Below, one piece after another: positions 3,403 to 43,292 of a stretch of 43,564 nucleotides of DNA (its first letter is position 1; each line of letters begins with the position of its first letter). The notes under the pieces were generated by a model. It did not search any database. It was not told where the DNA came from and saw only the letters and a program-made list of their open reading frames with translations. The stretch is from NCBI GenBank assembly GCA_001784585.1, contig MFRN01000013.1, positions 1 to 43,564 on the forward strand, written 5' to 3'. Source of the DNA: Candidatus Melainabacteria bacterium RIFCSPLOWO2_02_FULL_35_15. GTDB taxonomy: Bacteria > Cyanobacteriota > Vampirovibrionia > 2-02-FULL-35-15. The translations under genes and the position numbers were made by a program.

Positions 3403-6138
3403 ATGGGAATAAAAAGTTTATTGGAATATTTAACAGCTTTTATTTTAGTTTTTATATCATTTGCAGTATGTTCATCGCAGGCAAAGTCGATTAATCCGGA
3501 AGAAATGAAATCACAAATAAAATATATTACTGAAATAAATGGAATAAAAGAATTTGAACTGCCCAACGGTTTAAAAGTATTACTAAAATCAAATCGTTCT
3601 GTTCCGCTTGTAACTTTCTCTATTTGGTATAAAGTCGGCTCCAGAAATGAAACAGCAGGACAATACGGACTTGCACATTTTCTTGAACATATGATGTTTA
3701 AAGGTACTAAAAAACTAAAGAAAGGGGAGATTTCAGCTACAATTCAAGGTCTTGGTGGGGTATACAATGCCTTCACCTCAAGTGACGGAACTGCATATTA
3801 TGAAACAATATCACCAAAATATCTCGAAAAGGTTATAGAAATTGAATCTGACAGAATCAAAAATTCGACCCTTGATCAAAACGAGTTAAATCTTGAACGA
3901 ACAGTTGTTCTCTCAGAGCTGGAGGGAGATCTGAACAATCCAGCTACCCACTTAGATCAAAAAGTCAGAGGACTGGCTTATGAAATAAGTCCCTATAAGC
4001 ATCCGACTATTGGATATGAAAAAGAGGTTGAAAATATAAGCCCTGAAATGATGCGGGAATTTTACAAAAAATTCTACAGTCCAAACAATGCAGCTATTGT
4101 TTTAGCAGGAGATTTCAATGAAGCTACAGCCTTGAATTTAATTACTAAATACTTTGGGGAAATAAAAAATGACACTGGCAATATTTATGATTCCATCCCG
4201 AAAGAGAAAGAACAAATCAAAGAAAAACGTACAATCATTAAAAGAGCCGGATCATTTAAAATTCTTGAAATTGTTTACCATGTAACTGATACAAAGGACA
4301 ATGACATCTATCCCCTGAATGTTCTTGAAGAAATATTAATCAAAGGCAAAAAAAGCCCGTTAAAAAAGAAGCTAATCGAGAAAGGGTTAGCCACCGAAGT
4401 TTCCGGCGGCACAGAAGCAAACAGAGATCCCGGATTGTTTCAAATAGCGGTTTCATTAACTCCAAAAGCAACACATAAAAAAGTTGAAAAGATTATATTA
4501 AATGAAATAGATAAACTAATTCAAAAACCTTCTTCTAAGAAAGAAATTGAAGGTGCAATAAACAGGATTAAAGCAAGCTATTTGTTTGGGCTTGACGGTA
4601 CTTATAATCAGGCACTAAATATAGGATATTTTGAAGTAATAAATAACTGGAAACAATCTCAATACTGGATAGATGAAATATCAAAAGTAACTCAAAAAGA
4701 TATTACAAAAGTACTAAACAAGTACTTTAAGAAACAAAATCGTACCATTGGATACTTTATTCCAAAGTTACAAAAAGGGGAAAGATATGAAGCTCTTCCA
4801 ATAAATACAGGAACAGTTCATAACTATAAAAAAACAAGCCCAACAGAAAAAGCACAAACATTTACAACAAATCTTTTTAAATATGAAAAAATTCATTTAC
4901 AAGACAACTCTGATTTACTGCTGTATAAGGATATTGATCTGCCAATTACTTATATCTCAGGCGTTATTAAAGGTGGAAGCAGTTTACTGCCAAAAGACAA
5001 AGAATGGTACTGCCAGCTAATTACAAGAACCCTGGAGAAAGGAAGTAAAAAATATACAAAGGAAGAAATTGAAGAAATTCTTGACAATACCGGCTCTCAA
5101 ATAAATTTTTCCTGTGATGAAGAATCATTTAAGTTCACACTGGCATCTATAAATGACAATCTGCCAAAATCAATTGATTTATTATTCGATATTTTAATGA
5201 ACCCCTTGTTTCCAAAAGAAGAAATTGAAAAGGAAAAGGAGAAACTAACAGCTGAAATAAACGAGTCAAGAGATAACACCTCTGAAAATGCATCCAGAAG
5301 GTTTAGTCAAATTATTTACCCGTCAGATCACCCTTACTGTTCAAACACTTTCCCGGAAGATATCAGCCTGATTAAAAAAATTGATATTAAAAAAATAAAA
5401 GATGTTCATAATTCCTTAATTAGAAAAAATAAGGCAATTATTACATTAGTTAGCAACTTAAATAACAATGAATTAATAAATCAAATCAATGACAGCATAG
5501 ATACCGGGAAGCCAAAAGAAGAGGGAGAAATAAACATCCCGGACACCTTATTAAGAGAAAATTCAAGAACTGAAACAATAGTTTTAAAAGATAAAATGCA
5601 ATCTGATGTATTTTTAGGTCATGCCGGAAATTTAAAAAGAACTGATCCTGATTTCTACAAAATGAATATTGCAAATTACATACTGGGTGGCAGCTCTTTA
5701 TCAAGCAGGCTGAGTAAACGAGTCAGGGACAATTCCGGATTAACTTACACCATATACTCATACATAAACAGCTCACATGGTAAAGGTGAGTTTGCAGTTT
5801 ACTTTGGTTCAAATAATACCAATGTAGACAAAGCACTAGAACTAACAAAAGATGAATTGAAAAAATTTGTAAACAATGGCATTACTGAAGAAGAATTAAA
5901 AAGAGCAAAGGCTTCGCTGATAGATTCTTTCGTATCCAGGAATTTGTCTACATATAAAAACATTGCAAGCACATTAAGTGGGATTGAATTTTATAATTTA
6001 GGGGAAAATTATATCAATGACTATCCGGGAATAATTAATTCATTAAAGCTCGACGAAATAAATATTGCAATTAAAAAATACATTCATCCGGAAAAATTAA
6101 ATACAGTAATTGCCGGGGAATATAAAAATTCAAAATAG
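3403..6138 (+). CDS. Exported two-domain M16 family zinc peptidase
   Basis: 911 residues with an N-terminal signal peptide (residues ~8-28), so it acts outside the cytoplasm. The N-terminal M16 half carries the inverted zinc motif HFLEH at residues 92-96 and, 76 residues after H96, the third ligand E172 in LERTVVLSELEGD. This half looks catalytically intact. The C-terminal half (about residues 500-905) has the M16_C signature around SSRLSKRVRDNSGLTYTIYSY with the conserved R/Y pair, but no second HxxEH, as usual for fused PqqL/YmxG-type peptidases. The start is the ATG that keeps the signal peptide. A GAGG lies only a base away from it, too close for a normal ribosome site. It ends 3 bases from the convergent ileS stop. 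Confidence 0.93.
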   Translation: MGIKSLLEYLTAFILVFISFAVCSSQAKSINPEEMKSQIKYITEINGIKEFELPNGLKVLLKSNRSVPLVTFSIWYKVGSRNETAGQYGLAHFLEHMMFKGTKKLKKGEISATIQGLGGVYNAFTSSDGTAYYETISPKYLEKVIEIESDRIKNSTLDQNELNLERTVVLSELEGDLNNPATHLDQKVRGLAYEISPYKHPTIGYEKEVENISPEMMREFYKKFYSPNNAAIVLAGDFNEATALNLITKYFGEIKNDTGNIYDSIPKEKEQIKEKRTIIKRAGSFKILEIVYHVTDTKDNDIYPLNVLEEILIKGKKSPLKKKLIEKGLATEVSGGTEANRDPGLFQIAVSLTPKATHKKVEKIILNEIDKLIQKPSSKKEIEGAINRIKASYLFGLDGTYNQALNIGYFEVINNWKQSQYWIDEISKVTQKDITKVLNKYFKKQNRTIGYFIPKLQKGERYEALPINTGTVHNYKKTSPTEKAQTFTTNLFKYEKIHLQDNSDLLLYKDIDLPITYISGVIKGGSSLLPKDKEWYCQLITRTLEKGSKKYTKEEIEEILDNTGSQINFSCDEESFKFTLASINDNLPKSIDLLFDILMNPLFPKEEIEKEKEKLTAEINESRDNTSENASRRFSQIIYPSDHPYCSNTFPEDISLIKKIDIKKIKDVHNSLIRKNKAIITLVSNLNNNELINQINDSIDTGKPKEEGEINIPDTLLRENSRTETIVLKDKMQSDVFLGHAGNLKRTDPDFYKMNIANYILGGSSLSSRLSKRVRDNSGLTYTIYSYINSSHGKGEFAVYFGSNNTNVDKALELTKDELKKFVNNGITEEELKRAKASLIDSFVSRNLSTYKNIASTLSGIEFYNLGENYINDYPGIINSLKLDEINIAIKKYIHPEKLNTVIAGEYKNSK

Positions 6139-40620: not shown

Positions 40621-40995
40621 CTTGTCGTGAGCATTATAAAATAAAGCAATGATAAAACGCAATCACAACTTAAAGCATTTGTCCGATTTACTCGGCAAAT
40701 GCGATCAAGTGAGAAGAAGCTGCAGACGGAAGCTCACGCTTGTCGTGAGCATTATAATAAAGCAATGATAAAACGCAATCACAACTTAAAGCATTTGTCC
40801 GATTTACTCGGCAAATGCGATCAATCGAGAGGGAGCTGCAGACGGAAGCTCACGCTTGTCGTGAGCACTATAAAATAAAGCAATGATAAAACGCAATCAC
40901 AACTTAAAGCATTTGTCCGATTTACTCGGCAAATGCGATCGAGTGAGAAGAAGCTGCAGACGGAAGCTCACGCTTGTCGTGAGCACTATAAAAGA
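40621..40995 (+). repeat. Tandem array, 3.2 copies of a 116-118-bp unit ahead of tRNA-Gly
   Basis: Units start at 40621, 40739 and 40855 (lengths 118, 116, 118), and a 23-base partial unit from 40973 runs to the tRNA. Units differ at only a few bases, clustered after GATC. Each holds hairpin 1 (GCATTTG...CAAATGC with an inner CCGA/TCGG stem, 40675-40702 in unit 1). Hairpin 2 straddles each unit junction: GCTCACG-CTTGT-CGTGAGC, at 40732-40750, 40848-40866 and 40966-40984. Each unit can also encode a small basic peptide starting MIKRNHNLKHLSDLLGKCD (ATGs at 40649, 40765, 40883; 39 and 37 codons in the first two). The third frame runs into the tRNA and is not a gene. No spacer variety, so not CRISPR. 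Confidence 0.9.
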
Positions 40996-40997
40996 AC

Positions 40998-41069
40998 GCG
41001 GAAGTAGTTCAGTGGTAGAATGTCTCCTTGCCAAGGAGAAGGTCGCGGGTTCGAGCCCCGTCTTCCGCT
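40998..41069 (+). tRNA. tRNA-Gly(GCC)
   Basis: Full cloverleaf: acceptor GCGGAAG/CTTCCGC with discriminator T, D-arm GTTC/GAAT, anticodon stem TCTCC/GGAGA with loop TTGCCAA (anticodon GCC), T-arm GCGGG/CCCGT with loop TTCGAGC. CCA is not encoded. It follows 2 bases after the last partial repeat unit and has no obvious -35/-10 pair of its own. It may therefore be cut from a transcript that includes the array. Confidence 0.97.
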
Positions 41070-41373: not shown

Positions 41374-41574
41374 TTAACTAGCTTGTTGCTTTTTTAAATC
41401 AGCGAAAAATGTTTTTAGATCTTTTGCTGGTTTTATCTTTTTTATTTGTTCTTCACACTCTTTTGCTTTTTTTTGAATATAAGCAATATATTCAGTATTA
41501 GACATATTTTTTGTTTCTTCATACATCCTGTGACGAATGTCATGAATTTCTTTCATTGGTTTAGGTTCACTCAT
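41374..41574 (-). CDS. Probable antitoxin of the PIN toxin
   Basis: 66 residues, charged and helical: MKEIHDIRHRMYEETKNMSNTEYIAYIQKKAKECEEQIKKIKPA. The segment EIHDIRxxxYEETK...YI-x-KKA resembles short proteins often encoded beside PIN-domain toxins. It starts 4 bases after the PIN gene's stop on the same strand, so they form a pair with the toxin gene first. No clear DNA-binding motif is seen. The role is inferred from position and size. Confidence 0.7.
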   Translation of the reverse strand: MSEPKPMKEIHDIRHRMYEETKNMSNTEYIAYIQKKAKECEEQIKKIKPAKDLKTFFADLKKQQAS

Positions 41575-41578
41575 TGTT

Positions 41579-42055
41579 TTACTCCTTTTTACCCAAAAAA
41601 TGTTCTGGTGAAACTATATCAATTAATCCAAATCCCTCTCTATGATTAATATGGTGAACTCCCATTATCACTTTAGCTTTAACCATATGCTTAAAATTCC
41701 AAGATACAAGCAGATTGCATCTTTTAACAGTAGCTATTGCAATATGTTGTGCATCATTTACTTCATTTTTTGGAATCAACCCTTCGCTAATATAAATATT
41801 TGCAAGTTCTTTAGTGTCAGCATCAACAGTAATCATTTCATAACCATAAATATTTAAAAGCTCTTGTAATTTACTCCTTCTTGGTTCATATGCATTTAAT
41901 ATTTCTGAAAGAACTATATCAGAAATAAAAATAGAATATTCATTACTTCTGATTAATTGTAAGAACTCGTTGGTTATTAAACAATCAGCCCTCTCAACTT
42001 CTAATGCAAAGTTCCATACAGATGTATCTATATAAAGTTTAATTAGTTTTTCCAT
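41579..42055 (-). CDS. PIN-domain toxin (VapC-like RNase)
   Basis: 158 residues from the ATG at 42055; an ATG two codons earlier (42061) is also possible. Acidic residues typical of PIN nucleases are D10 (KLYIDTSVWN), E51 (ISDIVLSEILN) and D101 (NEVNDAQHIAIA), followed by VSWNFKHM. Such proteins cut RNA and are held in check by the adjacent antitoxin. The H-x-x-H-rich C-terminus (MGVHHINHREGFGLIDIVSPEHFL) is seen in a PIN subgroup often listed as putative nucleic-acid-binding proteins. Located in the accessory stretch beside repeats. Confidence 0.87.
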   Translation of the reverse strand: MEKLIKLYIDTSVWNFALEVERADCLITNEFLQLIRSNEYSIFISDIVLSEILNAYEPRRSKLQELLNIYGYEMITVDADTKELANIYISEGLIPKNEVNDAQHIAIATVKRCNLLVSWNFKHMVKAKVIMGVHHINHREGFGLIDIVSPEHFLGKKE

Positions 42056-42267
42056 ATACAATTAGTATTTTATCAGCAAACAAAAAAACTTATCTCAGGA
42101 AGCATATTTTCACAAACATGACCATGATTGGAGATGCAGGGGTGGTGATTGAAAAATTATGTTACAGATAGTTGAAATAGAAAGGCAAGTTAGAAGGTTA
42201 AAGCTGGTGGTGTTAAGGAATCTAAAATGTATTTCTAGCAAGTTTTAATTTGATTTTATTTTTTCTA

Positions 42268-42296
42268 TTGACAAAGTGTACCCCCCCCCTTAAAAT
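42268..42296 (+). promoter_or_regulatory. Promoter with a nine-C tract in its spacer
   Basis: Perfect TTGACA (42268-42273), a 17-base spacer and TAAAAT (42291-42296). The spacer contains nine consecutive C residues (42281-42289), very unusual in this AT-rich DNA. Slippage of the C run would change the spacer length and hence promoter strength, as in known phase-variable promoters. A second possible -10 (TGTATAAA, 42304-42311) lies downstream. The controlled gene starts at 42339. Confidence 0.7.
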
Positions 42297-42338
42297 CAAA
42301 GCCTGTATAAAAAATAAATGTTTTAGGAGATATTTAAC

Positions 42339-42905
42339 ATGCCAGTGATTCAAGCTTCCCAAAGAGTTCATATAAATTATCCTACTGATTGGCCAACCTA
42401 TCTTAAAGAAGCATTAGAAGATAGAAAAAATTTAAGATTGCCTGAAAGAGCAGAAGGAAATGCTTTTACTCCTGAAGAATTAAGAGGACTAGTTTGTGAT
42501 ACTTCTGGAACTTTGCTTGATTACAGTGACAACCTAATTCCTGGGGTTAAAGAACTACTTGAAGCTTTAAAAAAACAAGGCGGGTTCTCAAAAATTGAAG
42601 TTACTAGTGGTGGAAGTGATTGTTTATCAATTATTCATGCGGCTTTGCGTGATACACACTTGGTAGATAATTTTGCTTATGCAGGGACTCCAAAGAGAGG
42701 ATATGCTGCAACTACAGGCTCTACTTTTGTTTTAGAAGATAGAGGTAACGATACAACTACTCCATTTTTACTAAGTGCAATTACACCGCATAGGCAAGTC
42801 TGGAATATGGGGATTGCTAGACACCCAAACAGCTATGATAATGAACTTATAGATGAAATTATTAAAGCTTATTCTGCTGTAAGAACTGAGTTAGAAAAAC
42901 TGTAA
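42339..42905 (+). CDS. HAD-like hydrolase with altered motif I
   Basis: 188 residues; AGGAGA lies 8 bases before the ATG. The core follows HAD phosphatases: motif I LVCDTSGTLLD (D54, then S56 where most have Asp), a helical cap start IPGVKELLEALKKQ, motif II IEVTSGG (T89), and a possible motif III lysine near K119. The motif IV-like VLEDRGND (D134, D138) comes last. The nucleophile D54 remains, but loss of the second Asp (general acid/base) suggests phosphotransferase or mutase-like behaviour, or weak activity. The first 45 residues are not part of the domain. Its promoter has the nine-C tract. Substrate unknown. Confidence 0.78.
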   Translation: MPVIQASQRVHINYPTDWPTYLKEALEDRKNLRLPERAEGNAFTPEELRGLVCDTSGTLLDYSDNLIPGVKELLEALKKQGGFSKIEVTSGGSDCLSIIHAALRDTHLVDNFAYAGTPKRGYAATTGSTFVLEDRGNDTTTPFLLSAITPHRQVWNMGIARHPNSYDNELIDEIIKAYSAVRTELEKL

Positions 42906-43292
42906 TCAAGAATAGTTTTTAATGTTCAAAAACCTTGTACAATATTGTGCATGGAAATGAAGTATTTTACTCCTTCAAATCCCCGCCAAAGGCGAGGCTC
43001 GCCCAGCAAAGCTGGGCGGCAAAACCCAGTCAGCACTTACTGAACAAATATCACAGAGGGCTTTGAATTTTAATACTGGAATCTCTGTATTACCCTGCTC
43101 TAGCTTATAAAGATTTACCCTGTGCAAAATATTGTTTCACTATGTCACTTATAAACAGGTTTTCAAAAAAAGCTCCAGCCAGTGGTCTTTTTTTTACTTT
43201 AGTTTCTCTGTTTAGAGCATATACAAAATAAATAAAATCAGATATGATAAACGGTGAACATCTAAAGTAAATGTTTTTAAATAATATAAAAA
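42906..43292. other. Gene-free stretch before icd
   Basis: No gene is seen in these 387 bases. Only the split repeat with GC-rich hairpins (42972-43033) stands out. The remainder is AT-rich, with short frames of 30 codons or fewer. No clear ribosome site precedes icd; TATAAA at 43285-43290 lies 2 bases before its ATG. Confidence 0.55.
42972..43033 (+). repeat. 24-bp repeat split by a 38-bp double hairpin
   Basis: The halves CCTTCAAATCCC (42972-42983) and AAACCCAGTCAG (43022-43033) match the contiguous copy at 41331-41354 at 23 of 24 positions. The 38 bases between them (42984-43021) are GC-rich. They form two hairpins, CGCC-AAA-GGCG (42984-42994) and CGCCCAGC-AAA-GCTGGGCG (43000-43018), both with AAA loops. 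This looks like insertion of a small palindromic (REP-like) element. Confidence 0.6.

Follow-up and report, generated by a model that had tools for sequence, protein, structure and literature searches.

A nine-cytosine run in the spacer of a probable promoter, and its possible slippage control of a HAD-like gene in Melainabacteria

Upstream of a gene encoding a 188-aa HAD-like protein, a run of nine C's lies within the spacer that separates a -35 from a -10 hexamer, near one end of the window (the whole stretch of DNA analysed here, 43,564 nucleotides in length). The site at 42268 is probably a real promoter, and it is plausible that it also acts as a slippage switch of the kind already known from fetA, opc and porA. 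The site and its neighbours are as follows.

40998-41069: tRNA-Gly(gcc) gene
41374-41574, minus strand: 66-aa partner of the PIN gene; no family match in Pfam or NCBIfam
41579-42061, minus strand: divergent PIN-domain gene (PF01850, E 4e-5, just above the Pfam cut-off)
42268-42273, plus strand: -35 hexamer TTGACA, read from the sequence as half of an 11/12 pair
42274-42290, plus strand: promoter spacer of 17 nt, AAGTGTACCCCCCCCCT
42281-42289, plus strand: C9 tract within the 17-nt spacer, a run-length outlier, with TTGACAAAGTGTA on one side and TTAAAATCAAAGC on the other
42291-42296, plus strand: -10 hexamer TAAAAT, kept in the relative L001 along with five C's
42325-42329, plus strand: AGGAG ribosome-binding site, in a leader that aligns at 91% identity with the ortholog's
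42339-42905, plus strand: 188-aa HAD-like gene, the putative switched gene (open reading frame; sub-threshold Pfam matches; 70% identical ortholog in L001)
42975-43127, minus strand: apparent remnant of a convergent helix-turn-helix gene, recognized by its position and by local similarity to L001:652-873

In the proposed mechanism, a sigma-70-type promoter at 42268 would drive the HAD-like gene at 42339, and its C9 tract would gain or lose bases through replication slippage. Nine C's would give the optimal spacer of 17, so that the assembled state would be the strong one (ON), while eight or ten would make for a weaker promoter and seven or eleven would leave it largely shut. The outcome would be a random, reversible and graded transcription of an accessory gene. 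We infer that this promoter is active, that its tract slips and that expression responds; taking the analysis as a whole, the case for a spacer that slippage lengthens and shortens, in a promoter that is ON with nine C's and drives the HAD-like gene, appears to us evenly balanced.

The anatomy of the site is clear. An earlier note on this DNA had placed TTGACA and TAAAAT 17 bases apart with nine C's between them, and this is exactly what the sequence contains. TAAAAT lies 42 bases from the ATG (42339), with the ribosome-binding site in between. The pair scores 11/12 as a sigma-70-type promoter, a value reached by just two pairs at 16-18 nt spacing on both strands of the 43.5-kb window (this one included), and it is the best-scoring pair in the last 7.5 kb. 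When the sequence flanking the tract was shuffled on each side, a score as good arose in 0.2% of trials (P 0.002). Across the whole genome, however, exact TTGACA-N16-18-TANNNT sites number 67, against 113 for the reversed pattern. Since such sites are not enriched, the hexamers alone are no evidence of a promoter, and the same count favours the idea that they match by chance and that the tract belongs to something else, for instance a leader element facing the PIN gene like the G tracts described below. Against this stands the fit on shuffled flanks, and we consider such a coincidence improbable. The weight rests on tract, hexamers, spacing, leader and gene occurring jointly. A random tract position would fall within a spacer of the TTGACA-N16-18-TANNNT type about 0.03% of the time, a figure calculated after the fact. 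The earlier claim that a homopolymer lies in the spacer of a promoter finds support in the 11/12 pair and the shuffling, with the promoter itself recognized by sequence only. As in the fetA, opc and porA systems, a homopolymer lies between -35 and -10 upstream of a gene.

The second feature shared with these systems is a tract longer than the genome's background of runs. The window has a G+C content of 34%, and apart from the single C9 its longest runs, all of length 5, are five of C and two of G; no C/G run of 6-8 is present, nor any other above five. Across the genome (1.94 Mb), C/G runs of six number 56 and those of seven number 10; length eight is absent, while length nine occurs three times and length ten once. 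If the drop between six and seven is extrapolated, ~0.4 runs of at least nine are expected, whereas four are seen (Poisson P ~7e-4). The earlier remark that such a C run is out of place in AT-rich DNA was right. Of the genome's three remaining runs of at least nine, one is inside a methyltransferase gene, another falls in the signal-peptide region of a gene for a Cys-rich protein, and the last separates two gene ends. The first two are G9 tracts within coding frames of the window's own genome, G000 (C5:29528-29536, L005, for the methyltransferase; C37:1663-1671, L009, for the Cys-rich protein), and as both are in frame in the assembly, they could be frame switches.

The same counts bear on the main rival explanation, in which the promoter is real and its C run fixed, having arisen by chance or been kept for spacer shape or a binding protein, with switching too rare to matter. 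Four runs of at least nine per genome are not many, the family's genomes are similar in this respect, and several of the runs sit inside ordinary genes. On the other hand, this genome has four runs of nine or ten and not one of eight, and slippage is to be expected of long pure G/C runs. We hold a promoter whose C run is fixed and incidental to be a serious possibility, if one that falls short of probable.

The nearest relative of the 188-aa gene, and its only close ortholog found, lies on a contig (L001) of Candidatus Melainabacteria isolate nzgw191, and the two proteins are 70% identical. That contig begins with ccccc TTAAAATCAAAGC, i.e., inside the C tract. From these five C's to the ATG, the window and L001 are 91% identical, compared to 78% for the coding regions; on this alignment, conservation is stronger across the -10, the leader and a stretch of at least five C's than in the gene. 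Because the contig starts within the tract, neither the tract length nor the -35 of the relative can be read, and the missing upstream half of its promoter was sought on the other contigs of what appears to be its genome (G002) and not found. The conservation of -10 and leader comes with no evidence of length change, which suits a fixed run. The coverage of the L001 contig is about 3.8; contigs frequently break at such depth, which makes a break inside the tract only suggestive. Short reads are error-prone in homopolymer length, and together with the contig end in the run this might point to an artefact of assembly or sequencing; yet a run of at least five C's occupies the equivalent position in another, diverged genome, and the sequence is normal on both sides of the window's run, which makes an artefact highly improbable. 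The exact length of nine is less certain than the existence of the run. Only one complete copy of the tract is present in the data, and no variation in length was seen at this site. No relatives were found in viral contigs or plasmids. The rest of the window's family has no close ortholog of the gene, and its sole homolog, 30% identical and located in genome G005, has no tract upstream.

The product of the gene matches the Pfam families Hydrolase_6 and Hydrolase below the curated cut-off and has no match in NCBIfam, while a PDB search gave a weak match to a putative HAD protein; the predicted structure was too poor to use. It appears to be a soluble enzyme of the HAD type, and nothing marks it as an evident surface protein. 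This is not the typical phase-variable kind of gene, which again speaks for a fixed run. In both the window and L001, the HAD-like gene is found near tRNA-Gly(gcc) and an isocitrate dehydrogenase gene and is followed by a convergent helix-turn-helix gene. The latter is complete in L001 (652-873), with a weak HTH_31 match; its remnant in the window has no family match of its own. The material between these shared neighbours differs between the window and the L001 genome, and the 188-aa gene is missing from the other genome of the genus, both of which fit an accessory stretch. The toxin-antitoxin pair that the earlier note saw beside the tract (41374-42061) is a candidate: the PIN domain stands just above the Pfam cut-off, but nothing in the families searched matches the 66-aa partner. 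At 40800-41000, directly before the tRNA-Gly gene, the window also carries an imperfect direct repeat, GATTTACTCGGCAAATGCGATC ... CTCACGCTTGTCGTGAGCACTATAAA.

Direct evidence that tracts outside genes change length comes from the window's own family (f1), in which the runs of at least nine were taken with their surroundings from 11 genomes. By our count, tracts that reach ten or more number nine, seven of them intergenic. Several tracts of the whole set lie no more than about 100 bases from the start codon of a gene for a signal-peptide protein. On one contig (G006 C12, L067), two leader regions before secreted-type proteins carry G11 at 1048-1058 and G10 at 3428-3437. The 81 bases upstream and 92 bases downstream are identical in these twins, so that tract length is the sole difference: the tract has changed while its flanks stayed the same. 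Four further loci (L062, L066, L068 and L070) have intergenic tracts of G9-G11, preceded by approximately GTTTnAAAAnTC, followed by a TAAAA-like stretch and located ahead of genes for short proteins that are secreted and Cys-rich or carry a signal peptide. At L065 (966-974, reverse strand; G005 C14), a G9 ends one base before the ATG, at the position expected of a ribosome-binding site, and slippage there could tune translation.

The possibility that the family's intergenic G tracts share the spacer design was considered and not supported, as no convincing sigma-70 hexamers surround them. Since these tracts read as G on the coding strand and lack such hexamers, the window promoter is arranged differently, and it is the one clear case of a tract in a spacer that was seen. 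On its minus strand the window's run does read as G, as the family's intergenic tracts do, which would suit chance hexamers and an element facing the PIN gene; nevertheless, the PIN start is ~220 bases off, compared to 30-100 in the family cases, and it is the side of the tract toward the HAD-like gene that is conserved, as far as its ATG. A promoter whose spacer slips at C9 remains a plausible reading, with indirect support from the over-length of the tract, the length change in the G006 twins, and the conservation in L001 of the -10 side together with five or more C's. It is weakened by nine being short for a slipping tract, by a product that is not an evident surface protein, by the different arrangement of the family's other intergenic tracts, and by the tractless homolog in G005.

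Elsewhere in the class, very many long G/C tracts occur in the ~2-Mb genomes of another family (f5), which may be the gut Gastranaerophilales. Prepilin-type (N_methyl) matches number 54-103 per genome in the five f5 genomes searched, against 0-12 in nine others; the loci inspected were L072-L091, L108-L132 and L143-L182, from G024, G057, G014 and other f5 genomes. Many of these genes have a G/C tract of 8-14 within a short coding leader ahead of the prepilin motif. In 382 kb of G024, G/C runs of length five number 85; five runs of six and one of seven are present, lengths 8-11 are missing, and 13 runs measure 12-14. Most of these tracts follow the ATG by a few codons and precede a motif of the type FTMAEILLSLTI; among those with an assignable frame, nine were out of frame and three in frame (one of the latter at a contig end). 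In G014, a tract of 8-11 is found in 11/19 sampled prepilin genes; its length varies from C8 to C11 or from G8 to G11 among paralogs whose leaders are similar, while in G057 a tract was present in only 3/20 prepilin genes, chosen by prepilin score. Promoter tracts were considered for the G014 genes and dropped, as a ribosome site and ATG precede the tract. Several f5 contigs end in or beside such G/C tracts. Overall, f5 looks like the owner of a large frame-switched prepilin repertoire; no paper in the literature library searched joins Gastranaerophilales with phase variation.

MutS (PF01624) was not detected in the window's genome, and is present in 13 of the 14 class genomes searched. The neighbours of mutS in G001 (L138), one of which also lies beside mutS in G002, were likewise not found there, apart from an efflux protein, matched at 28% and probably a paralog. 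The absence may reflect either gene loss or a missing contig.

Melainabacteria, the type to which the window's genome belongs, are non-photosynthetic relatives of cyanobacteria, and most known slippage promoters come from host-adapted pathogens. It is a tentative and rather doubtful generalization that Melainabacteria widely use G/C-tract slippage, in promoters or leaders of accessory and secreted proteins within the window's family (this promoter included) and in frame-switched prepilins within the other, and that the window's genome may have lost mutS and switch faster. A slippage promoter at this site would extend such control to new organisms and gene types, namely an uncultured cyanobacterial relative and an accessory, apparently soluble enzyme. 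The relatives seen here make the question of slippage testable from existing metagenome reads.

Compared to the family's G tracts (L058, L062, L066-L070), the window's tract is similar in being a G/C run of the 9-11 range located no more than about 100 bases from a start codon, with length differing between the G006 twins; the family tracts differ in reading as G on the coding strand, lying mostly before signal-peptide genes and lacking convincing sigma-70 hexamers. Among characterized systems, porA of Neisseria meningitidis changes expression when the spacer between -10 and -35 changes length (van der Ende 1995, as cited in PMC5084427). Its tract is listed as mixed T/G in a gonococcal table (PMC5320596) and it encodes a porin whose variation was measured, unlike the pure C run and apparently soluble enzyme of the window. 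In the opc gene of the same species, a variable-length poly-C in the promoter region controls transcription (PMC3960869); the likeness lies in this poly-C, and the difference in that opc is a surface adhesin whose variation has been experimentally shown. Finally, fetA (frpB) of Neisseria gonorrhoeae has poly-C between -10 and -35, the length of which sets the spacing: it runs from C10 to C14 and differs between strains, expression has been measured, and an outer-membrane protein is controlled (PMC5320596). The window, with its C9 in one complete copy ahead of an apparently soluble enzyme, departs from this in tract length and product, but in both cases poly-C occupies the promoter spacer.
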